In this document: positions 5,616-18,566 of the stretch, piece by piece
Layout of the letters: each line of letters starts with the position of its first letter
How positions within the stretch are numbered: the first letter of the stretch is position 1
Assembly: GCA_036015235.1 (NCBI GenBank)
Contig: CP107926.1
Span: 372,001-436,000, forward strand
Direction of reading: 5' to 3'
DNA from: Streptomyces sp. NBC_00433
GTDB taxonomy: Bacteria > Actinomycetota > Actinomycetes > Streptomycetales > Streptomycetaceae
Length of the DNA: 64,000 nucleotides
Position numbers and translations under genes: made by a program
The notes under the pieces: model-generated
What the model was told of the DNA's origin: nothing
What the model saw: only the letters and a program-made list of their open reading frames with translations
Database searches by the model: none

Positions 5616-5798
5616 CACAACCCCCTACGGTAAGTAGCCCCACCGCGACTCTGCGGCGCCACGCGCCGACGCGGGCCGACGGTGTCCGTGACACCTCATG
5701 TGGCGGGATCCCGTCCCAGCATGTCCGCGCGCCGATTTGTCAGGCAGAATTGTCGCGGGAGACGAGACAAAGCCGGACTAGTGGTCTGGGGGAGGCCA

Positions 5799-8213
5799 GT
5801 GGGACGCCCGGAGAGATCTGTTGACCCCGCCGCAGGGCCGGTGGCCGAATTCGCGGCGCAGTTACGTGACCTGCGGCAGTCGGCCGGCGGGCCGTCGTAC
5901 CGGACGATGGCGCGTGCGGCACACTACTCCGCCGCCACCCTGGCCCGCGCCGCCGGCGGCAGCGCCCTGCCGACCCTGGATGTCGCCCTGGCCTACGTGG
6001 AGGCCTGCGGCGGGGACTCCGCGGCATGGCGCGACCAGTGGCGCAAGGTGTCCACTACACGACACGGGGCCGCCAGGCGGACGCCGGCTCCGTTCCTGAC
6101 ACCGAGGCCGAGGGGTCCGCTCGGCCTTCCCACGCCACGTCAGCTTCCCGCCGGCACGCGGCACTTCACCGGCCGCGAGGAGGAGCTGGAGCGGATCTCC
6201 TCGCAGCTGTCGACGAATCGCGACGAGGACTCAGCCGTGATCACCACCGTGTGCGGCGGCGGCGGGATGGGCAAGACGAGCCTGGTCCTTGAGTGGGCGC
6301 GGCGCCACGCCGCCTCCTTCCCCGACGGCCAGCTCTACGTCAACCTCCGGGGGTTCGATCCCGGCGGACCTCCCGTGGGCCCGGCCACCGCGCTGCAGGG
6401 GTTCTTGCAGGCCCTGGGGATGTCGCAGGAGACGATCCCGCCCGATCCCGACGCCCAGGCGGCCCTCTACCGCAGCCTGGTGGCCGGCCGCCGGATGCTG
6501 GTGGTGCTCGACGACGCGGCCGACACCCGGCAGGTCGCTCCGCTGCTCCCCGGCAGCGGCCTGATCCCCGTCCTCGTCACGAGCAGGCGGCGGCTCGACG
6601 GACTGGCCACGACGCACGGCGCGCGCCGCATCCGGCTCGACGCGCTGCCCTCCGCGGATGCGAGGAAGCTGCTCAGCCATCGCCTCGGATCCCAGCGGGT
6701 GGCCGCGGAGCCCGAGGCCGCCGAGGAGATCCTCGACCGCTGCGGAGGGCTGCCGCTGGCGCTGACGATAGCGGCGGCGCGGTGGGGCGCCCGTGACGGT
6801 TTCCCGTTGGCGGACCTGGCAGCCGAGCTGCGGGACGAGAGTGCGCGGCTGGACGCGCTGGAGGTCGAGGGGTCACTGGTGGGCCTGCGGGCGGCGCTGG
6901 AGTGCTCCTACCGGGCACTCTCCGGGCCGACCGCGACGCTGTTCGCGCTGCTGGGGTCGGTGCCGTATCCGGAGGTCAGCGCGGAGGCGGCCGCCGCCCT
7001 GGCCGGGCAGCCGCTCCAGACGGCCGGCGCTCTGCTCCGGGAGCTCGACGACGCGCATCTGGTGACCCAGCCGGCTCCCGGGCGCTATCGCATGCACGAC
7101 CTGGTGCGCCTGTACGCCGCCGAGCAGGGCCGGGTGTCCCAGGGTCCGTACGTGGTGGCCGCTCGCACCCGCCTGGCCGAGTTCTACCTGCACTCCCTCT
7201 TTCGTGCCGAGCGGCAGCTGTACCCGCAGCGTGCCGCGATCGCGCTGCCCGACCCCGTCGCCGAGGTCGACCCGCTCCTCTTCGCGGGCATCGCGCAGGC
7301 GCTTGCCTGGCTCGACACCGAGTACGCGAACCTCATGACGGTACGCCAGGAAGCCGTCGCGCGAGGCTGCCACGAGGTGGTCTGGAAGATGGCGTGGGCG
7401 CTGATGACGTACCGCATACGCCGCGGCCGGATGCGGGACGACCTGGCCTCCTGGCGCGACGCGCTGGCCGCCCTGCCCCACCTGACCGGCCGGCCCGAGG
7501 CCGAGTACATGGTGCACTGCGGTTTCGGCGGCGCCTGCGTCCGCGTCGGCCGCCACGCCGAGGGGCTTCCACACCTCCTGCGCGCCAAGATGCTGGCCGA
7601 GGCGGCCGGCGACGTCTTCGGCCGGGCCGAAGCGCACTTCCACCTCGCCGTCGCCTGGCACTACGCCGACGACGGCCACCAGTCCCTGGCCCACGCCCTC
7701 CAGGCGCTGGCCCTCTTCAGAACGATGGGCGACCCGGTCTGGATCGCCCTGTCACTCAACGCCGCGGCCCGCTCCGCCACCGGAGTGGGCGCCCACGGGG
7801 AAGCCCGTGCCCACGCGGAGGCCGCCTTCGCCCTGGCGCGCGCCCACGACCAGACCGACGCCGAGGCGGAGGCCTCGGTCAACCTCGGCTACATCGCCCA
7901 GCGGACCGGGGACCCGGCATCCGCCCTGGAGCACTTCGAGCACGCGGTGCGGATCCACCGCAAGCGCCGCAACGTCTACTTCGAAGCCGACGTCCTCGAA
8001 CAACTGGGTTACGCACACGCCCACCTCGGCCGGGCGACCGCGGCCCGCGACGCCTGGCGCCTGGCGGCCGAATCCTACCGGGCCCAGTGGCGCCTGCCCG
8101 AGGCCGAGCGGCTGGACGACCTGCTGTCCGACGAAGGGCGCCTGCAGTCGGGCGCCGTGCCCGCGAGCCCGACACTGTCGGGGATACTGTGCTTCTCGGT
8201 CGTGAGGACGTGA
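5799..8213 (+). CDS. STAND (NB-ARC) regulator with N-terminal helix-turn-helix and C-terminal TPR repeats
   Basis: An 804-residue signal-transduction ATPase. The N-terminus (about 8-85) is an XRE-like helix-turn-helix region typical of Streptomyces proteins starting MGRPERxxDPxxGPVxxFA. It is followed by an NB-ARC ATPase with P-loop GGGGMGKTS (about 153-161), Walker B RRMLVVLDD (about 231-239) and a GLPLAL motif (about 317-322). The C-terminal third is alpha-helical TPR-like (repeats with AEAHFHLAVAWHYADDG and EASVNLGYIAQRTGD). The frame is open to 5682, but GTG 5799 is chosen because it gives the conserved N-terminus and follows GGGGGAGG closely. Family members relate to AfsR but lack the SARP DNA-binding domain. 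Its targets cannot be read from the sequence; the adjacent methyltransferase and the downstream peptide locus are candidates. Confidence 0.9.
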   Translation: MGRPERSVDPAAGPVAEFAAQLRDLRQSAGGPSYRTMARAAHYSAATLARAAGGSALPTLDVALAYVEACGGDSAAWRDQWRKVSTTRHGAARRTPAPFLTPRPRGPLGLPTPRQLPAGTRHFTGREEELERISSQLSTNRDEDSAVITTVCGGGGMGKTSLVLEWARRHAASFPDGQLYVNLRGFDPGGPPVGPATALQGFLQALGMSQETIPPDPDAQAALYRSLVAGRRMLVVLDDAADTRQVAPLLPGSGLIPVLVTSRRRLDGLATTHGARRIRLDALPSADARKLLSHRLGSQRVAAEPEAAEEILDRCGGLPLALTIAAARWGARDGFPLADLAAELRDESARLDALEVEGSLVGLRAALECSYRALSGPTATLFALLGSVPYPEVSAEAAAALAGQPLQTAGALLRELDDAHLVTQPAPGRYRMHDLVRLYAAEQGRVSQGPYVVAARTRLAEFYLHSLFRAERQLYPQRAAIALPDPVAEVDPLLFAGIAQALAWLDTEYANLMTVRQEAVARGCHEVVWKMAWALMTYRIRRGRMRDDLASWRDALAALPHLTGRPEAEYMVHCGFGGACVRVGRHAEGLPHLLRAKMLAEAAGDVFGRAEAHFHLAVAWHYADDGHQSLAHALQALALFRTMGDPVWIALSLNAAARSATGVGAHGEARAHAEAAFALARAHDQTDAEAEASVNLGYIAQRTGDPASALEHFEHAVRIHRKRRNVYFEADVLEQLGYAHAHLGRATAARDAWRLAAESYRAQWRLPEAERLDDLLSDEGRLQSGAVPASPTLSGILCFSVVRT

Positions 8214-8407
8214 GGAACGCGGCTGTACGCCGGGGACAGTAGCCCGGCCGGGCGGCAGGCTGTCCGACCTGGGATGCCGGCGTGTGCGACCCGGTCCGCT
8301 TCCCTGACCAGGTAGGGATCGCGCAGGCAACGAGCACCTCCCTCGCACGAGCGCACCGCGCATTCGGGATGAACGCCCAGGGCGGGTGAGCAGGAGCCGG
8401 GCGAGGT

Positions 8408-8476
8408 GGCGGGCGCGGTCGGCGTCTCGCGGACGATCGTCGCGGGGATCCCACCCGCGGCGATCTTGGAGAACAG
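8408..8476 (-). pseudogene. HIT-family protein N-terminal remnant
   Basis: A short minus-strand segment translates to LFSKIAAGGIPATIVRET, closely matching the start of HIT nucleotide hydrolases ('CLFCKIVAGEIPATVVRET'). The usual first Cys and the HxHxH catalytic region are not found downstream in any frame. The rest of 8214-8702 shows no recognisable gene, so this is a decayed fragment in a rearranged interval. Confidence 0.55.
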
Positions 8477-8702
8477 GCGGTCCGGCCCGGGGATCTCCCG
8501 CCGTCGCGGGACCCCCTTATCGGGACTTACGGGCTTCGGGGCTCCGCGTGCTACCGGCCCGCGGCCCGTACAAGATCCGCCGTTCCACGCGGTCATCCGG
8601 TCACTGTCGGTGATCGGCGGCTGCGGTGCGGGCGGCCGCCACGGGCACGCGCGAGGGCCGGCGCGACACGGAGGCGGCCTTGCCCCAATCCGGGTATTCG
8701 GC

Positions 8703-9080
8703 TTATACCGGTGCGTCTCGCGTGGTGACTCCCGACACGGCCCGCGCGCGTGCCGCGACCACTATCGCGGCGACCCAGCGCTGCTCGCGGAAGGACGACG
8801 GCTGGTCCTCGGCGCGATCCTGCATCGACCGCCACAGATCCGCCCTGGTCCAGGCGATGAAGCGGCGGTGTGCGGTGGCGGGCGAGACATCGAAGCGTGG
8901 CGGCAGCTGCCGCCACGGACACTCCGACATCAGAACGTAGACGACGGCGGTGAACACCTTGCGCCCGTCCACCGGGGCGGTACCTCCGCCCTGGCGGCGG
9001 AACCCGAAAGCCGGGAGGAGCGGCTCGACCAGTTGCCATAAGTCGTCCGTCACCAATCTCTGAGCCAGATCAAATCCCAT
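8703..9080 (-). mobile_element. IS5-family transposase, truncated N-terminal part
   Basis: The 125-residue frame starts MGFDLAQRLVTDDLWQLVEPLLP and contains GGGTAPVDGRKVFTAVVYV, CPWRQLPPRF and ATAHRRFIAWTRADLW. This is the DUF4096/InsA-type N-terminal half of actinobacterial IS5-group transposases. After WVAAIVVAARARAV, which resembles the 'WSRAIVDAASVRA' join, homology stops and the DDE catalytic half is absent. The element is therefore non-autonomous or dead. It forms the left border of the peptide locus that begins at 9491. I could not identify terminal inverted repeats with confidence. Confidence 0.8.
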
Positions 9081-9295
9081 GCGACACCGTTAAAACATTG
9101 TTCCCATTGAACACAGCCACGTGAGACACCTTCCCCGTCGAAGACTCCCGTCCATTCCGGGACCCAACGCCGACTATGGCACCGGGATCGCGCCGCCGTC
9201 CATCGGTCCTCCCTCATCACGGAACGCACAATGCGGCTTTCCCCAATGTTTTTTGATCATGAGGGGATGTGCTCCGACGCCTCCCCTGGGACCCG

Positions 9296-9301
9296 TTGAC
9301 A
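9296..9301 (+). promoter_or_regulatory. possible -35 element in the leader of the peptide locus
   Basis: The 410-base stretch 9081-9490 has no gene and is less GC-rich than its surroundings. It contains a consensus TTGACA at 9296-9301 on the strand of the peptide gene. No good -10 hexamer stands at 17-18 bases; AAATCT at 9320 and TATGCA at 9315 are the nearest. The interval is the only plausible place for the promoter of the 9491-13672 operon, but the exact site is a guess. Confidence 0.3.
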
Positions 9302-9490
9302 CGCTTCTGTGTTCTATGCAAATCTGACGGAGCCGGGGACAGGTTCAAGACACTGTTTCCGGATAGGACGGGTGAGCGAACCACCGAGTGGCCGATGCAT
9401 TCCCTTTTCTTTCCGAGTCACCCGAGAAATCGGGGCGCCTCCGAATTATCGGACGGCGAAGTTGCACCGCCATGAGAGAAGGAGTCCGCC

Positions 9491-9574
9491 ATGAAGAAGA
9501 TCACCGTCCGCAAGGCCGGCACGGTTCGTCTGACCTCGGCTGCCGCCTCGGCCTACTGCTGCGGCGCCAGCTGA
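9491..9574 (+). CDS. candidate RiPP precursor peptide, 27 residues, C-terminal Cys-Cys
   Basis: A short frame directly behind an excellent ribosome site (AGAAGGAG at 9477-9484, 6 bases before ATG). The N-terminal half reads MKKITVRKAGTVRLT, basic and beta-prone like a leader. The C-terminal part reads SAAASAYCCGAS: small residues, then Tyr-Cys-Cys-Gly-Ala-Ser. It is far too short to be an enzyme. It is followed by a strong hairpin and then by a PqqD-like/M50 protease, a TPR protein and a flavin reductase on the same strand. A leader plus a Cys-rich tail beside a PqqD-like (RiPP recognition element) domain suggests a ribosomal peptide that is modified and cleaved. I do not recognise the peptide family. 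It loosely resembles methanobactin precursors in layout (short basic leader, Ala-rich joint, Cys tail), but no MbnB/MbnC gene is present. Coding status is inferred, not proven. Confidence 0.7.
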   Translation: MKKITVRKAGTVRLTSAAASAYCCGAS

Positions 9575-9699: not shown

Positions 9700-10932
9700 A
9701 TGGCAACGGTTTCCCCGGACCTCGACCAGCCGGTGCGACTGCACCCTCTGACCTATCTGGAGGAGGGGGACGAGGTCACCGTCGGGCGCGCGGACATCGA
9801 CTCCTACGGGCTCTTCCCGGTCGACGGCGCCGCGCTGCTGCGCCGCCTGGAGGCCGGCGACTCGCCGAACGCCGCCGCCCGCTGGTACACCAGGCAATAC
9901 GGCGAGCAGGTCGATGTCGCCGAATTCCTCGAAGTCCTCGAAGAACTGGAATTACTCGTCAAGGACGGCGAGCAGACGGCGCAGGCGGCAGGACCGGTGC
10001 GCTGGCAGCGCCTGGGACGCGCGCTGTTCTCCCCCGCGGCCTGGGTCGTCTACGGCCTGCTGGTCGCGGCGACCGCGGCCGCCGTGATCCGCACCCCCGA
10101 GCTGCTGCCGCGCTACCACCACCTGTTCTTCACCCATACCTCGCTGGTGGTGCTCACCTTGGGCATCGTGCTCGGCCAGGTGCCCTGGATCCTCGCGCAC
10201 GAGGCCTTCCACGCCCTCGCGGGCCGCCGGCTCGGTCTGCGCTCGACCCTGTCGATCGGCCGGCGCTTCTACTACATCGTCTTCGTGACCGCGCTGGACG
10301 GCCTGGTGGCCGTGCCCCGCCGCAAGCGCTACCTGCCGATGCTGGCCGGCATGCTGCTGGACGTCCTGGTCATCTGCGGCCTGACCCTCGGCGCGGCCGC
10401 ACTGCACGGCGGCACGGGCGCCACCGGGGTCGTCTACCGCCTGCTGCTGTCGATGGCGTTCGCCGTCGTCCTGCGGCTGGCCTGGCAGTTCTACTTCTTC
10501 TTGCGCACCGACCTGTACTACCTGGCCATCACCGTGCTGGGCTGCAACGACCTGCAGACGGTGGCCCGCCAGCAGTTGCGCAACCGCGTCGTGCGGCTGC
10601 TGCGCATGCCCGAGCGGGCGGTCGACGAGTCCGGCTGGACCGACCGCGACCGCGACGTCGCCCGCTGGTACTCCTGGCTACTGGTCGCCGGCTACGTCTT
10701 CCTGACCACGACGCTGCTGACCGCCGTCATCCCGACCGGCGTCAAGGTGACCCGGATGGCCGTGCACAAGCTCGACTCGAACCTGTCCCTGGCGAATGTC
10801 GCCGATGTGATCGTCTTCCTGATCCTCAACTTCGGCGAGCTGTTCCTCGCCGGCTACCTGGCCGCCCGCAGCTGGCGGCGCAGGACCAGGACGGCGGCCC
10901 CCGCCTCGCCGCCGGCGCAGACCGCGGCCTGA
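9700..10932 (+). CDS. PqqD-like domain fused to M50-type membrane zinc metalloprotease
   Basis: A 410-residue protein. Residues about 10-90 (VRLHPLTYLEEGDEVTVGR ... DVAEFLEVLEELELL) have the winged-helix pattern of PqqD/RiPP recognition domains that hold leader peptides. Residues about 110-390 are polytopic membrane protein with the zinc motif HEAFH (167-171) inside a hydrophobic helix and a candidate third ligand Asp at about 221 (GMLLDVLV), as in site-2-type and YydH-like peptide proteases. It probably binds the 9491 peptide and cleaves or exports it at the membrane. It starts 126 bases after the peptide gene, behind a GTGAGGCAG ribosome site, and precedes the TPR gene by about 100 bases. 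Domain assignment is firm for the metalloprotease and good for the PqqD-like part; substrate identity is inferred. Confidence 0.85.
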   Translation: MATVSPDLDQPVRLHPLTYLEEGDEVTVGRADIDSYGLFPVDGAALLRRLEAGDSPNAAARWYTRQYGEQVDVAEFLEVLEELELLVKDGEQTAQAAGPVRWQRLGRALFSPAAWVVYGLLVAATAAAVIRTPELLPRYHHLFFTHTSLVVLTLGIVLGQVPWILAHEAFHALAGRRLGLRSTLSIGRRFYYIVFVTALDGLVAVPRRKRYLPMLAGMLLDVLVICGLTLGAAALHGGTGATGVVYRLLLSMAFAVVLRLAWQFYFFLRTDLYYLAITVLGCNDLQTVARQQLRNRVVRLLRMPERAVDESGWTDRDRDVARWYSWLLVAGYVFLTTTLLTAVIPTGVKVTRMAVHKLDSNLSLANVADVIVFLILNFGELFLAGYLAARSWRRRTRTAAPASPPAQTAA

Positions 10933-11039: not shown

Positions 11040-13133
11040 ATGGACCAGGCAGAGTTCCGCCACCACTGGGTGCACGGAGGCTCACGACGGGGCCGGGCCG
11101 ACGCCGTACGCTCGCTCGCCGCTCCGCCCGCGCTGCTGCCGTCCGGCCTGCCCGTCGACGCGCACCGCCGGCTGCGCGGCCCGTACACCGCGGCCAACAC
11201 GGTGGCGCGGGCGCTGGTGCCTGAGGTGCTGCGGCGCGACGCGGCCCCGGTACGCCGCTACGACATCGAAGTGCTGTCCGTGGCGCCGGAGCTGAGCGAT
11301 CAGGTGCCCAACTCGCGCGAGACGCTGACGTCGATGGCGCTGCCCGCCGAGCGCACCCGCTACTACGCGCGGCTGCGGACCAAGCGGATCGCCAACGGGC
11401 TCGCCGAGTTCGTCCGTGACGCGCTGCCCTCCGGTGGCCCGCGCACCTTGGTGGTGGAGAACGCCGAGCACGCCGAGGCCACGGACGTCGAGTTCATCGC
11501 CGCCCTGGTGCGGCGGGTGGACCCGGCCCGCCTCACCGTCGTGGTCTGCTCCGGCGGCGACGCGGGGGCGCTGGACGAGCGGCTGCGGTCGGTGCTCGAC
11601 GCCCGCGCTCTGGAAACCACCGTGACGGCCGGGCCGCCCGCGCAACCGGGCGGGGACGCCTGGTCCTATGTGAGCGGCGAGTGCCTGGCCGAGGAGCCCG
11701 CCACGCATGCCGCTTACGAGGCACTGGACGCCGCGGAAAGGGCCGCGCTGCACGACCGCAGGGCCGCGGAGATCCTGGCGGTGGGCGACTTCTCCCACGG
11801 CCTCGGCGCCGTCCCCTACCACCTGGAGCGCGGCACCGATCCGGTCGGCGCCGCCCTGCCTGTGCTTCTCGCCGCCGCCGACCATTGCCTGGTGAACGGC
11901 TTCTACGACGCGGTCGTCGACTACGGCACCCGGGCTTTCGCACTGCTCGACGGCACCGGGAACGACACCCTGTGGTGGAAGTTCGCCGTCAAACAGGGTC
12001 TGGCCCTCTCGATATTGTCCAGGACCCGCGAAGCCGAGGAAATCTACGACCGCGCAAGACTTCTGTCCACAGACCCCGCCGTGCATATGGCGTGCTCTTA
12101 TTCCACGGCAATGCTCTACACCCGGCATAATGACCCCGCCGACCGTGACGAGAAGAAGGCGAAAGCCCTGCTGAACGGCGCGGTCGCCACCGCCTCGCTG
12201 CTGCCCGACAGGGTCGAACGCGCCTTCCAGAGCGCGTTTTACAAAAACGGCCGCGCGCTGGTCGAGGTCAATCTCGGCGACCCTGCGGAAGCGCTCAGGC
12301 TCGTCACCGAGTGCATCGACGACCTCGACAGGCAACTGGCACCCGACGAGCACCGCCTGCACCGCTCTGTGCTCAAGAACAACCGCGCCCGCGTCTATGT
12401 CGGCCTCGGCCGTCTGAACGAGGCGTTGGACGACTACGCCGTCGTCATCGAGCAGGACCCCAACCACGCCGAGCACTACCTCGAACGCGGCAACATCCTG
12501 CGGCGGCTGGGCCGCACCGAGGAGGCCCTCGCCGACTACGCGCGCGCGATGCGGCTCTCCCCGCCCTTCCCCGAGATCTGCTACAACCGCGGCGACCTGC
12601 GGCTGTCGGAGGGCGACACCGCCGGCGCGCTCGCCGACTTCGACTACGTCATCGACCTGGAGCCGGACTTCGTCGACGCCTACGTCAACCGTGCCGGGCT
12701 CTACCTGGACGAGGAGCGGCTCGACGCCGCCCGGCAGGACGCCGAGACCGGGCTCCTGCTCGACGCCGACAACGCCTACCTACACGTGGTGGTGGGCCAG
12801 GTGCACGCGGAGAACGAGGACTTCGCCGCCGCCGAGGAGGCGTACGACCGGGCCGTCGCGGCCGACCCGACCCTGGTCACCGCGCTGTCCGGGCGGGCCG
12901 CGGTCCGCTTCGAGAACGGCAGGGCCGACGCCGCCGTCGAGGACATGGACCGCGCGGTGGACCTGGCCCCCCAGGACCCGGCGCTGCGCTACAACCGGGC
13001 CTTCCTCCACCAGGCCCGCGAGGATTGGCACAGCGCACTGGCCGACCTCGTCGTCGCGGACGCCCTGGCCCCCGACGACGAGGACATCGCCGCCGCCCTC
13101 AAGACCTGTCGCGTGAAGACGGGCCAGGCGTGA
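11040..13133 (+). CDS. TPR-repeat protein with vestigial ATPase-like N-terminus
   Basis: A 697-residue cytoplasmic protein. The N-terminal 220 residues are laid out like a STAND/AAA module. RGPYTAANTVARALVPEVLRR stands where a P-loop would be but lacks the GxGxGK(T/S) signature, while a Walker-B-like strand RTLVVENAEHAE and a following VVVCSGG strand remain. From about residue 320 to the end it is TPR, with eight or more repeats such as EALDDYAVVIEQDPNHAEHY and EALADYARAMRLSPPFPE. TPR arrays bind peptides or partner proteins. In this operon it may act as scaffold, sensor or chaperone for the peptide. ATG 11040 is chosen over an in-frame GTG at 11022 because GGAAGGAG (11024-11031) lies 8 bases before it. 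The stop overlaps the flavin reductase start. Confidence 0.85.
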   Translation: MDQAEFRHHWVHGGSRRGRADAVRSLAAPPALLPSGLPVDAHRRLRGPYTAANTVARALVPEVLRRDAAPVRRYDIEVLSVAPELSDQVPNSRETLTSMALPAERTRYYARLRTKRIANGLAEFVRDALPSGGPRTLVVENAEHAEATDVEFIAALVRRVDPARLTVVVCSGGDAGALDERLRSVLDARALETTVTAGPPAQPGGDAWSYVSGECLAEEPATHAAYEALDAAERAALHDRRAAEILAVGDFSHGLGAVPYHLERGTDPVGAALPVLLAAADHCLVNGFYDAVVDYGTRAFALLDGTGNDTLWWKFAVKQGLALSILSRTREAEEIYDRARLLSTDPAVHMACSYSTAMLYTRHNDPADRDEKKAKALLNGAVATASLLPDRVERAFQSAFYKNGRALVEVNLGDPAEALRLVTECIDDLDRQLAPDEHRLHRSVLKNNRARVYVGLGRLNEALDDYAVVIEQDPNHAEHYLERGNILRRLGRTEEALADYARAMRLSPPFPEICYNRGDLRLSEGDTAGALADFDYVIDLEPDFVDAYVNRAGLYLDEERLDAARQDAETGLLLDADNAYLHVVVGQVHAENEDFAAAEEAYDRAVAADPTLVTALSGRAAVRFENGRADAAVEDMDRAVDLAPQDPALRYNRAFLHQAREDWHSALADLVVADALAPDDEDIAAALKTCRVKTGQA

Positions 13134-13672
13134 CCACCGCCGAGCCGGCCGTGCACGGGGCGGCCGGCCCGGCTGGACGGCCGCTGCACGCGCCGGCCGG
13201 GCAGCGGGCGCTGCGCGACGTACTGGGCCGCTACGCCACCGGTGTCGCGGTGGTCACCACCCGGCACCACGGGCGGCCCGCCGGCGTCACCGTCAACTCC
13301 TTCACCTCGGTGTCCCTCGACCCGCCGCTCGTCCTGTGGTGCCTGAGTTCCTCCTCCGGCAGCCGGTCCGCCTTCACCCGCACCGAGCACTTCGCGGTGA
13401 ACGTGCTCGGCGCGGACCAGCGCGACCTGTGCACCCGTTTCAGCCGCCCCGGCGACCGCTTCGCCGGGCTGCCGGTGCACACCGGACCGCACGGCCTGCC
13501 GCTGCTGCCCGGCGCGATCGCCGTCCTGCTGTGCCGCCGCGTCGATCTGCTGCGGGCCGGCGACCACCTGCTGCTGCTCGGCACCGTGACGGACCACAGC
13601 ATGTCCCCCGGTCCTGCGCTGCTGTTCGCCGACGGCGGCTACCACGCCGGACCGGGCCGCACCGGACCCTAG
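13130..13672 (+). CDS. flavin reductase family protein (FMN-binding split barrel)
   Basis: A 180-residue protein of the two-component monooxygenase reductase family. It contains LRDVLGRYATGVAVVTT, then GVTVNSFTSVSLDPPLVLWCL, SAFTRTEHFAVNVL and a C-terminal HLLLLGTV block with LLFADGGYH, all standard positions for FMN and NAD(P)H binding. Such proteins supply reduced flavin to an oxygenase or halogenase, or act as flavoenzymes themselves. GTG at 13130 overlaps the TPR stop (GTGA), so the two are translationally coupled and belong to one operon. No flavin-dependent partner is encoded nearby. An IS30-like remnant begins within 3 bases of the stop codon, so downstream operon genes may have been lost. 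Confidence 0.9.
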   Translation: MTTAEPAVHGAAGPAGRPLHAPAGQRALRDVLGRYATGVAVVTTRHHGRPAGVTVNSFTSVSLDPPLVLWCLSSSSGSRSAFTRTEHFAVNVLGADQRDLCTRFSRPGDRFAGLPVHTGPHGLPLLPGAIAVLLCRRVDLLRAGDHLLLLGTVTDHSMSPGPALLFADGGYHAGPGRTGP

Positions 13673-16291: not shown

Positions 16292-16559
16292 TGTCGATCC
16301 TGACTTTCGTCGGCACCTCGCGCGGGGAAGCCGAGAATGGGATGAAACAGCCCGGATGGAATTCAGCCTAGACCCGAGGGACCAGCGGTGCGGCTGCCAG
16401 GCCGAGTGTCCTGCCAAGCCTCCGGTGAAGTTGCCGGAGCCGATCCTCAGGTCTAGCGTAGCCAGGGTATGGGGTGGTCTCCGCAGCGCGAGGTTAGACA
16501 CACGAAGCGGGTTGCGAGCCTCCGTCGGCGGCCCCCCGGCAGGGCTCTCAAAAGGGAAC

Positions 16560-16715
16560 CCGTCAGCGGCTGCATTCACGGATTCATGGGCCGCCTTCTT
16601 CAAGTTGCTCGGTAAAGGCGACGTCGATGTCGTGGCGAATCTCTTCAGCGAAGAGATCGACTGGTTCGCGCCGGGGAACGGGAAGTCGATTCCCCGGGCC
16701 GGCCGGCGGACACGA
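16560..16715 (+). pseudogene. SnoaL-like domain remnant
   Basis: The translation shows FTDSWAAFFKLLGKGDVDVV and then ANLFSEEIDWFAPGNGKSIP, the first helix and strand of SnoaL/NTF2-like proteins ('F...L..GD.D....LF...I.W..PG'). The rest of the roughly 130-residue fold is missing. The frame then runs, without a stop, into the MOSC gene start at 16794, so an automated caller could wrongly fuse the two. Confidence 0.65.
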
Positions 16716-16793
16716 CGTGAGCAAGCCGATGACCCACGCGAGGCTCCCCCGGGACCGGATCCGCAGCGGAGTCGCCGCAAGAAAGGTGGCGGG

Positions 16794-18566
16794 ATGACCA
16801 CATTGACAGCGGTGAACGTGGGGATGCCGAAAGACACGCCGTGGCATGGCAAGACCGTGTACACCGGCGTGTACAAGGAGACCGTGTCCGGGCCGCGGAT
16901 GGTGCGCCGGCTGAACATCGACGGCGACGGCCAGGGCGACCTGGGCGGACACGGTGGTGAGCAGCGGGCGGTACTTGTCTACCAGCTGGACTCCTACCGC
17001 CACTGGGCCAAGGAACTGGGCCGCGACGATCTCACACCGGGCAATTTCGGGGAGAACTTCACCGTTGAGGGACTGCCGGACGACGAGGTCTGCATCGGCG
17101 ACCGCTACCGCATCGGCGGCGCGCTCTTCGAGGTCACGCAGCCGCGGGTCACCTGCTACCGGGTGGGCCTGCGGATGGGAGAGCCGCAGATGGCGGCGCT
17201 GCTGGTGGCGCACCACCGCCCCGGCTTCTACCTGCGGGTGATCGAGGAGGGCGAGGTCGAGGCCGGGCAGGAGATCGTCAAGGTGTCCACCGGCCCCGAG
17301 GCGATGACCGTCGAGGAGATCGACCGCGTGCTCTACCTGCCCGGACACACCCGCGAGCAGATCGAGCGCGCCCTGCGGATCCCCGCGCTCAGCCCCGGCT
17401 GGCAGACCTCCATGCGGACCCTGCACGACCAGGCCGACAAGGCGCCGGCCGGCGCCTCCGGCAGCGCCGGGCTGAACACCGCGGCGACCGCCCCGCCGCC
17501 CGCCTGGCCGGGCTTCCGCCCGCTGACGGTCACCCGCGTCGAGACCGAGAGCCGCACCGTGTTCTCCCTCTACCTGGCGGCCGCCGACGGCGCTGAACTG
17601 CCGGAAGCGCTCCCGGGGCAGTTCCTCACCGTCAAGGTCCAACCCGAAGGGGACGCGCCGCCGCTGATCCGCAGCTACTCGCTGTCCGGCGAACCGGGCA
17701 CCGGCACGTACCGCATCAGCGTGAAGGTAGAGCCCCACGGCGCCGCCAGCAACGAACTGCGCGACCACATCCGGGTCGGCGACCACCTGGAGGCCGCGGC
17801 ACCCCGCGGCACCTTCTGCCTGGCAGACGGCGACAACCCGGTGGTCCTCCTGTCGGCCGGAGTCGGGGTCACCCCCGTCCTGGCCATGCTGCACGCCCTC
17901 GCCCGCGACCGGTCCGCCCGCCAGGTGTGGTGGCTGCACGGCGCCCACGACAGCACCGAGCACCCCTTCGCCCAGGAGAGCCTGGACCTTGTCGGCGCGC
18001 TCCCCGACGCCCGGTCGACCGTCTACTACAGCAAACCTGCCGCGGGGGACCGTCTGGGCGTCAACTACGCGGACACCGGCCGCATCTCGGCCGACCACAT
18101 CTCGGGCCTGGGCCTGCCGACCGACGCCGACGCCTACCTGTGCGGACCTGACGCCTTCATGACCAGCGTCACCAACGCTCTCGTCGACGCGGGGCTGGAC
18201 GCCTCCCGCGTCCACAGCGAGAACTTCGGGGCGGGTCCCTCCCTCACCCCCGGCGTCAAAGGCTCCGCGGCCGCGACCGCCCCGCACCAGCCCGCAGGTA
18301 CGCCCGGCACCGGCCCCGAGGTCTCCTTCGCCCGCAGCGGCCTCAACGTCCCGTGGAACGACGCGCAGGAATCGCTGCTCGAACTCGCCGAAGCCTGCGA
18401 CGTCCCCGTCCAGTGGTCGTGCCGTACCGGCGTTTGCCACACCTGTGAGCTCGCGCTGATGTCCGGATCGGTGGCCTACTCCCCCGACCCGGTCGAACCC
18501 CCGGCCGACGGCAACATCCTCATCTGCTGTTCCATGCCCGCCGAGGATGTCGTCCTGGATCTGTAG
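16794..18566 (+). CDS. MOSC domain-ferredoxin reductase-[2Fe-2S] ferredoxin fusion oxidoreductase
   Basis: A 590-residue three-part redox protein. Residues 1 to about 215 are a MOSC/3-alpha domain (QRAVLVYQLDSYRHWAKELG, NFGENFTVEGL, TQPRVTCYRVG with the conserved Cys), as in YiiM-type proteins that may bind molybdenum cofactor sulfur. About 245-480 is a ferredoxin-NADP reductase module (IRSYSLSGEPG for FAD, LLSAGVGVTPVLAM and YLCGPDAFM for NAD(P)). The C-terminus is a plant-type ferredoxin (CRTGVCHTC plus a distal Cys). It probably passes electrons from NAD(P)H to an acceptor at the MOSC site. ATG 16794 follows AAGGTGGCGGG. The frame is open upstream into a SnoaL remnant, which is not part of the protein. 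Confidence 0.92.
   Translation: MTTLTAVNVGMPKDTPWHGKTVYTGVYKETVSGPRMVRRLNIDGDGQGDLGGHGGEQRAVLVYQLDSYRHWAKELGRDDLTPGNFGENFTVEGLPDDEVCIGDRYRIGGALFEVTQPRVTCYRVGLRMGEPQMAALLVAHHRPGFYLRVIEEGEVEAGQEIVKVSTGPEAMTVEEIDRVLYLPGHTREQIERALRIPALSPGWQTSMRTLHDQADKAPAGASGSAGLNTAATAPPPAWPGFRPLTVTRVETESRTVFSLYLAAADGAELPEALPGQFLTVKVQPEGDAPPLIRSYSLSGEPGTGTYRISVKVEPHGAASNELRDHIRVGDHLEAAAPRGTFCLADGDNPVVLLSAGVGVTPVLAMLHALARDRSARQVWWLHGAHDSTEHPFAQESLDLVGALPDARSTVYYSKPAAGDRLGVNYADTGRISADHISGLGLPTDADAYLCGPDAFMTSVTNALVDAGLDASRVHSENFGAGPSLTPGVKGSAAATAPHQPAGTPGTGPEVSFARSGLNVPWNDAQESLLELAEACDVPVQWSCRTGVCHTCELALMSGSVAYSPDPVEPPADGNILICCSMPAEDVVLDL

Follow-up and report, generated by a model that had tools for sequence, protein, structure and literature searches.

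What does a 27-residue frame at positions 9491–9574 encode, and which genes belong with it? The 64,000-nucleotide stretch of actinobacterial DNA analysed here (the window) contains this short frame, which a sequence-only reading proposed as an unannotated gene with a leader-like and a core-like half, laid out vaguely like a methanobactin precursor. The gene, its ribosome site and the genes that follow it are:

9477–9484, forward strand: Shine-Dalgarno AGAAGGAG, read in the sequence, with a 6-base spacer to the ATG
9491–9574, forward strand: 27-aa precursor-like peptide gene encoding MKKITVRKAGTVRLTSAAASAYCCGAS, with a leader at about residues 1–15 and a variable tail at about residues 16–27
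9700–10932, forward strand: 410-aa membrane protein with a predicted N-terminal RRE (PqqD-like) at about residues 10–90, followed by a site-2-protease-like domain
11040–13133, forward strand: 697-aa TPR protein whose N-terminal domain resembles a degenerate NTPase, with an GGAAGGAG ribosome site before its ATG at 11040
13130–13672, forward strand: flavin reductase (FMN/FAD reductase-like; Pfam Flavin_Reduct, E 7.8e-40)

Conservation of the peptide gene

The gene runs from the ATG at 9491 to the TGA at 9572–9574, and the coordinates, peptide and ribosome site given by the sequence-only reading were all exact. Its claim that the ribosome site is one of the best in the window holds roughly, as the anti-Shine-Dalgarno duplex energy of -8.8 ranks ninth against the 52 called genes. 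A site as strong was also found at 10 of the 271 ATG-initiated frames of 20–60 aa in the window, so the ribosome site alone is weak evidence for coding. Good ribosome-binding sites precede the orthologous peptide genes too.

Peptide matches at E ≤ 0.01 were found in 27 of 61 related genomes, and the identical 27-residue peptide (100%) is encoded in four genomes of the same genus. Five bases vary among these four orthologs, every one a synonymous third-position change, and the flanks carry indels and more change. Synonymous third-base change had been put forward as proof of coding, with frame-disrupting indels or stops in close relatives as its refutation; all 5 of the 5 variable sites show the former, and none of the four orthologs carries the latter. 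Family-wide, several synonymous codons are in use for the conserved residues of the leader.

The very short length of the frame and the frequency of comparable ribosome sites among small frames would suit a frame that arose by chance, or a regulatory leader that precedes the protease gene without coding for a peptide. However, protein-level conservation across genera with third-position change and the strict synteny of the peptide gene with its partners make this explanation so improbable that we consider it ruled out by codon pattern and synteny. At the level of sequence comparison, conservation confirms that the overlooked gene is real and coding, on the basis of the orthologs, the 27 of 61 genomes and the synteny in 58 of 58 loci described below. 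A second copy of the peptide (MKKIKIRKAGSVRLTTSASLYGGPPCDLA) lies ~2.2 Mb away in the window's own genome, and another genome (L059) has two tandem copies.

A near-invariant leader and a variable tail

Aligned relatives, which come from soil actinobacteria, share the near-invariant leader MKKIxVRKxGxVRLT, followed by a highly variable tail. Tail sequences include SAAASAYCCGAS (window), SAAASCYCGGTPVLA, SSAYYCCSAL, SSAPLYCTDCC, TSASLYGGPPCDVA, SVAAAMYGDPQSCPIWIA and SAALCPYTCVCSAA, among others. They are rich in C, Y, G and P, and Tyr and Cys recur in most of them. The strict set contains 35 distinct full-length peptides with the leader fixed, and the extended set contains more. A short gene with a conserved leader and a variable core is the pattern of a RiPP precursor. 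The leader/core division read from the single sequence is borne out by the alignment, and the next gene is predicted to carry a RiPP-leader-binding fold.

A three-gene cassette

Neighbour clustering placed the same two genes, in the same order, directly 3' of the peptide in 36 of 36 loci. In the extended set, peptide, protease and TPR gene occur together in all 58 loci; since many of these were retrieved through the protease rather than the peptide, the association is not a search artefact. The two downstream genes, which the sequence-only reading had passed over, are thus obligate partners of the peptide. The system is common in the host genus, with the protease in 22 of its 33 good genomes.

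The GTG start of the flavin reductase overlaps the TPR stop codon (GTGA) in the window. Among the 54 cassettes with enough flanking sequence, this gene lies 3' of 20, which rules it out as a universal fourth gene. Apart from the flavin reductase, nothing in the window cassette is an obvious tailoring enzyme; the cassettes share no dedicated exporter, and PADLOC reported no relevant defence system.

Several other features of the surroundings were observed. A short IS5-family transposase-like ORF (DUF4096; 8703–9080, reverse strand) lies just 5' of the peptide, and its equivalent is kept at the same place in another species (L048). Upstream of the cassette, positions 5682–8213 encode an AfsR/HaaT-like HTH NB-ARC TPR regulator, and similar regulators recur near other copies. 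Positions 16356–18566 encode a protein in which MOSC, FAD/NAD-binding and 2Fe-2S domains are fused. On a plasmid of Streptomyces sp. NBC_01450 (L107), a cassette copy at 5731–9368 is flanked by numerous transposases; its peptide is longer and ends in MRKISVRRTEPIKVTSAPFSHQPAIVPV, its protease is annotated as hypothetical, and a TPR gene is present. This transposase-flanked copy hints at a mobile cassette. Most plasmid relatives of the protease carry the annotation "hypothetical protein".

The membrane protease and the TPR protein

The window protease has its HEAFH at residue 167, and six TM segments are predicted. In an alignment of 12 homologs, H167, E168, H171 and D200 are invariant, giving HExxH followed by LDG. 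The S2P/M50 signature, an HExxH in a TM segment with a downstream Asp, is thus seen in the motif and the TM estimate, and it is from the HExxH/LDG motifs, together with the topology, that the protein is putatively assigned to the site-2 proteases. Pfam and NCBIfam gave no match for the window peptide or the window protease, Pfam M50 included, and a PDB sequence profile search with the protease gave none either. Weak profile matches were to PqqD (E 0.029), a lasso PqqD-like model and the daptide intramembrane metalloprotease.

The AlphaFold2 model of the protease has a mean pLDDT of 74, with residues 186–207 below 50. Its N-terminal domain is modelled as three strands and three helices (bbb-aaa) at residues 18–82. 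The best structural matches in VIA-align were 5v1v (Z 9.4, 2.2 A over 79 residues) and 6jx3 (Z 9.3), both lasso RREs solved with leader peptides; further RRE-bearing RiPP enzymes and PqqD ranked next. The N-terminus is therefore predicted to be an RRE fold, and the leader-binding RRE expected in a protein neighbouring a RiPP precursor is present here by predicted fold only. For the TM half, a moderate-confidence model, the VIA/Foldseek fold search listed no solved site-2 protease, which is not evidence that this half differs from site-2 proteases.

In the TPR protein (predicted structure at pLDDT 88), Pfam placed TPR repeats in the C-terminal part, together with a weak AAA_16 match, and found no HTH. 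A fold search with the model returned generic TPR superhelices only. The P-loop position reads GPYTAANT or GPYTAAGT; GK[ST] is absent, and none of 12 sequences has a P-loop lysine. The N-terminal part resembles an NTPase from which this lysine has been lost.

Accessory enzymes in sister loci

Three sister loci (L062, L063, L067) encode a B12 radical-SAM protein and a DUF5825 protein 3' of the cassette. Two of the three radical-SAM proteins (L062, L067) were scanned against TIGR03975, "RiPP maturation radical SAM C-methyltransferase", and both pass its curated cut-off (E 1e-181). The tails at these loci contain Y...C motifs, and the three cassettes are good first targets for product discovery.

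Another four loci (L044, L049, L061, L069) encode a flavoprotein from a single cluster ~0.8 kb upstream, and each of the four peptides has Cys as its last residue. Three of the four flavoproteins were scanned and gave PF02441; relatives of the protein are phosphopantothenoylcysteine decarboxylase and, by weak similarity, CypD-type peptide-cysteine decarboxylases. The overlap between Cys-ending peptides and the flavoprotein has a hypergeometric P of 0.0011, with identical peptides collapsed and phylogeny uncorrected. Peptides ending WPWC and WPFC occur without the flavoprotein gene, which rules out a strict rule that a C-terminal Cys means a flavoprotein. The accessory enzymes of these sister loci, TIGR03975 radical SAM or PF02441 flavoprotein, support the RiPP reading; in the window, the flavin reductase is the only candidate for a modifying enzyme.

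Protease-free and distant relatives

TPR homologs without the protease are also directly preceded by a peptide, e.g., MKKIIIRKPGTTKLSGTSSVIHKG and MKPVIVHKPGTVALTGAASPKHVG. This protease-free peptide was matched in 48 of 120 genomes and 25 of 68 genera of another family of the class, and the TPR gene adjoins it in 28 of 30 checked loci. Its tail, SSVIHKG, is nearly invariant. Across the protease-free peptide and TPR pairs of this different actinobacterial family (L168–L178, L188, L190–L192, L211–L240), the nearly invariant tails are SSVIHKG, SPKHVG and SPRHLT, and one subtype lies directly after apparent smc and ftsY genes. For protease-free loci with a fixed tail, a ligand or small-protein role fits better than a variable natural product.

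Distant protease relatives are accompanied by other leader-like peptides (MKKLVVRKLEPIKTSANADCVPAAA; KTKITIRLLDKIETTNASNSVGN), often with a ThiF-type adenylyltransferase. Loci of the latter kind (L179, L181, L182, L108 and L109, as well as L087 and L104) are possibly pantocin-like pathways: one has a weak PaaA-like N-terminal match, and most have a different short leader-like peptide. In another four loci (L095, L098, L180, L185), the only companion seen for the RRE-protease gene is a short peptide (MKKLVVRKLEPIKTSANADCVPAAA, MKKLIVRRLESVKTSAATSCSVVVA); the vicinity showed neither a TPR nor a ThiF gene.

Proposed mechanism and alternatives

With moderate confidence, we favour the reading that the peptide gene encodes the precursor of a RiPP-like (ribosomal, leader-guided) system, in which the leader docks on the RRE-protease and the protease releases the tail. 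The basic, beta-strand-prone leader MKKITVRKAGTVRLT would dock on the N-terminal RRE of the membrane metalloprotease, and the TPR protein may hold or present the peptide, assisting or sensing the process. In the window, the flavin reductase might help alter the Cys/Tyr-containing tail; in sister loci, the Cys-decarboxylase-related flavoprotein or the B12 radical-SAM methyltransferase might do so, as optional redox or methyl tailoring. The membrane HExxH site would then cut near the RLT/S boundary and yield a short tail peptide of ~10–12 residues. We infer the leader–RRE binding, cleavage site, modifications, release and biological role from the combined pattern. The reading is drawn from the synonymous-only change, the fixed leader, the 58 of 58 loci, the predicted RRE fold, the invariant HExxH and LDG and the RiPP enzymes of sister loci, and from the fact that an RRE–site-2-protease fusion is already established in daptides (PMC10036551). 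Counting against it are the limitation of tailoring enzymes in the window to the flavin reductase, the lack of a conserved exporter, the Cys-ending WPWC and WPFC tails without a flavoprotein, the protease-free loci of another family with their nearly invariant tail, and the moderate quality of a protease model for which the fold search gave no solved site-2 protease.

The main rival is a peptide signalling pair, in which trimming by the protease turns the peptide into a short signal for export and the TPR protein serves as its intracellular receptor, as in streptococcal SHP/Eep/Rgg and other RRNPP systems. It owes this position to the protease-free form, whose invariant tail argues that part of the family is a ligand of the TPR protein; the constant pairing of peptide and TPR gene, in all cassettes and in 28 of 30 protease-free loci, points the same way, as do the putative regulators (SARP/NB-ARC-like, LuxR-like) often found nearby. 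We nevertheless judge signalling unlikely as the main function, given that the TPR protein showed no HTH, that the peptide is not hydrophobic in the manner of SHP (maximum 15-residue KD 0.9), and that TPR-only loci lack a protease nearby that could produce the signal. The RRE fusion and the tailoring enzymes of sister loci point instead to leader-guided modification. More improbable again is an unprocessed small protein acting as a structural subunit or regulator of a TPR/protease complex, with a functional leader and a drifting tail. Such a protein would agree with the greater conservation of the N-terminal half and with the small conserved peptide of the TPR-only form, which has no processing enzyme, but the tails depart from randomness, in that Tyr and Cys are found again and again and certain tails pair with accessory enzymes; in addition, the tail codons of the four orthologs change only synonymously.

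Beyond the RiPP-like reading of the window locus, a wider picture is conceivable, and we offer it with more doubt than conviction. The family may be a new actinobacterial leader-peptide class whose core is the peptide and the degenerate-NTPase TPR protein, comprising a protease-free form with an invariant tail and an RRE-protease form whose diversified tails recruit RiPP enzymes. The TPR protein would then be a previously unrecognised leader- or tail-binding factor that links peptide signalling with RiPP making.

Comparison with known systems

The cassette has the appearance of a system, so far undescribed, that makes short peptides, either modified or serving as signals. The peptide and protease are unnamed in the family libraries searched, and no description of the cassette was found in the searched passages of open-access papers, including RRE-Finder and a 2025 RRE paper; prior notice elsewhere is possible. 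MKKIxVRKxGxVRLT is a ready search motif, and the family offers a matched set of diverse tails and a protease whose leader specificity is directly testable. Related leaders with the protease, without it and with other enzymes form a natural experiment. If the tails are released, they would form a large and still unread collection of Cys/Tyr peptides, made by a bacterial group known for antibiotics.

The methanobactin-like layout suggested by the sequence-only reading did not survive the comparison. The likeness is confined to a short leader and a Cys-containing tail; the conserved partners differ, and the genome's only MbnB-type (PF05114) gene lies ~450 kb from the peptide, which rules this identity out. 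Lasso peptide B1/RRE proteins (TbiB1) share the RRE fold and supplied the best structural matches, but no lasso cyclase or B2-type protease is among the conserved neighbours of the cassette. Rgg/SHP with Eep, and other RRNPP systems, likewise combine a short peptide, a membrane metalloprotease and a TPR protein. Here the TPR protein resembles a receptor beside its propeptide by adjacency only: the peptide is not hydrophobic or signal-bearing, no HTH was found, and an RRE domain and, in sister loci, RiPP enzymes are present instead. An HTH is not required of Rap-type RRNPP receptors.

Membrane proteases of RiPP pathways come closer. TMcins (TmcA/TmcP) use a leader peptidase of the site-2-protease clan (PMC13252029), but their precursors hold a transmembrane helix, which the cassette peptides do not, and TmcP is a DUF3267 protein. 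The epipeptide protease EpeP and the pearlin proteases TglG/TmoG are membrane M50 enzymes that process RiPP precursors (PMC10885120). They share the pairing of membrane protease and RiPP precursor, but no epimerase or PEARL enzyme is among the conserved partners here, and the passages of that review that were consulted describe no TPR partner for them.

In daptides, an RRE is fused to an intramembrane site-2 protease, a fusion that was used to find them (PMC10036551). As in the cassette, an N-terminal RRE and a membrane HExxH protease lie beside short precursor genes in Actinomycetota (PMC10036551); in the cassette, the placement of the RRE N-terminal to the site-2 protease is indicated by motif and predicted fold. 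One member of the protease family weakly matches NF041824 (daptide_HExxH). The leader, however, is MKKIxVRKxGxVRLT rather than the daptide ELExMEAP, the invariant C-terminal Thr is absent, and a TPR gene is always present. The daptide MpaB/C/D/M enzymes (dehydrogenase, aminotransferase, methyltransferase) and ABC transporter are not conserved around the 36 cassettes, nor were they seen among the scanned window neighbours. Leader, C-terminus and enzymes thus rule out daptide membership, with the RRE-protease architecture shared. What the cassette has in common with these protease-bearing RiPP systems is the protease idea only, as leader motif, tail, TPR partner and enzyme set all differ, and its closest described architecture is the daptide RRE–site-2 protease.
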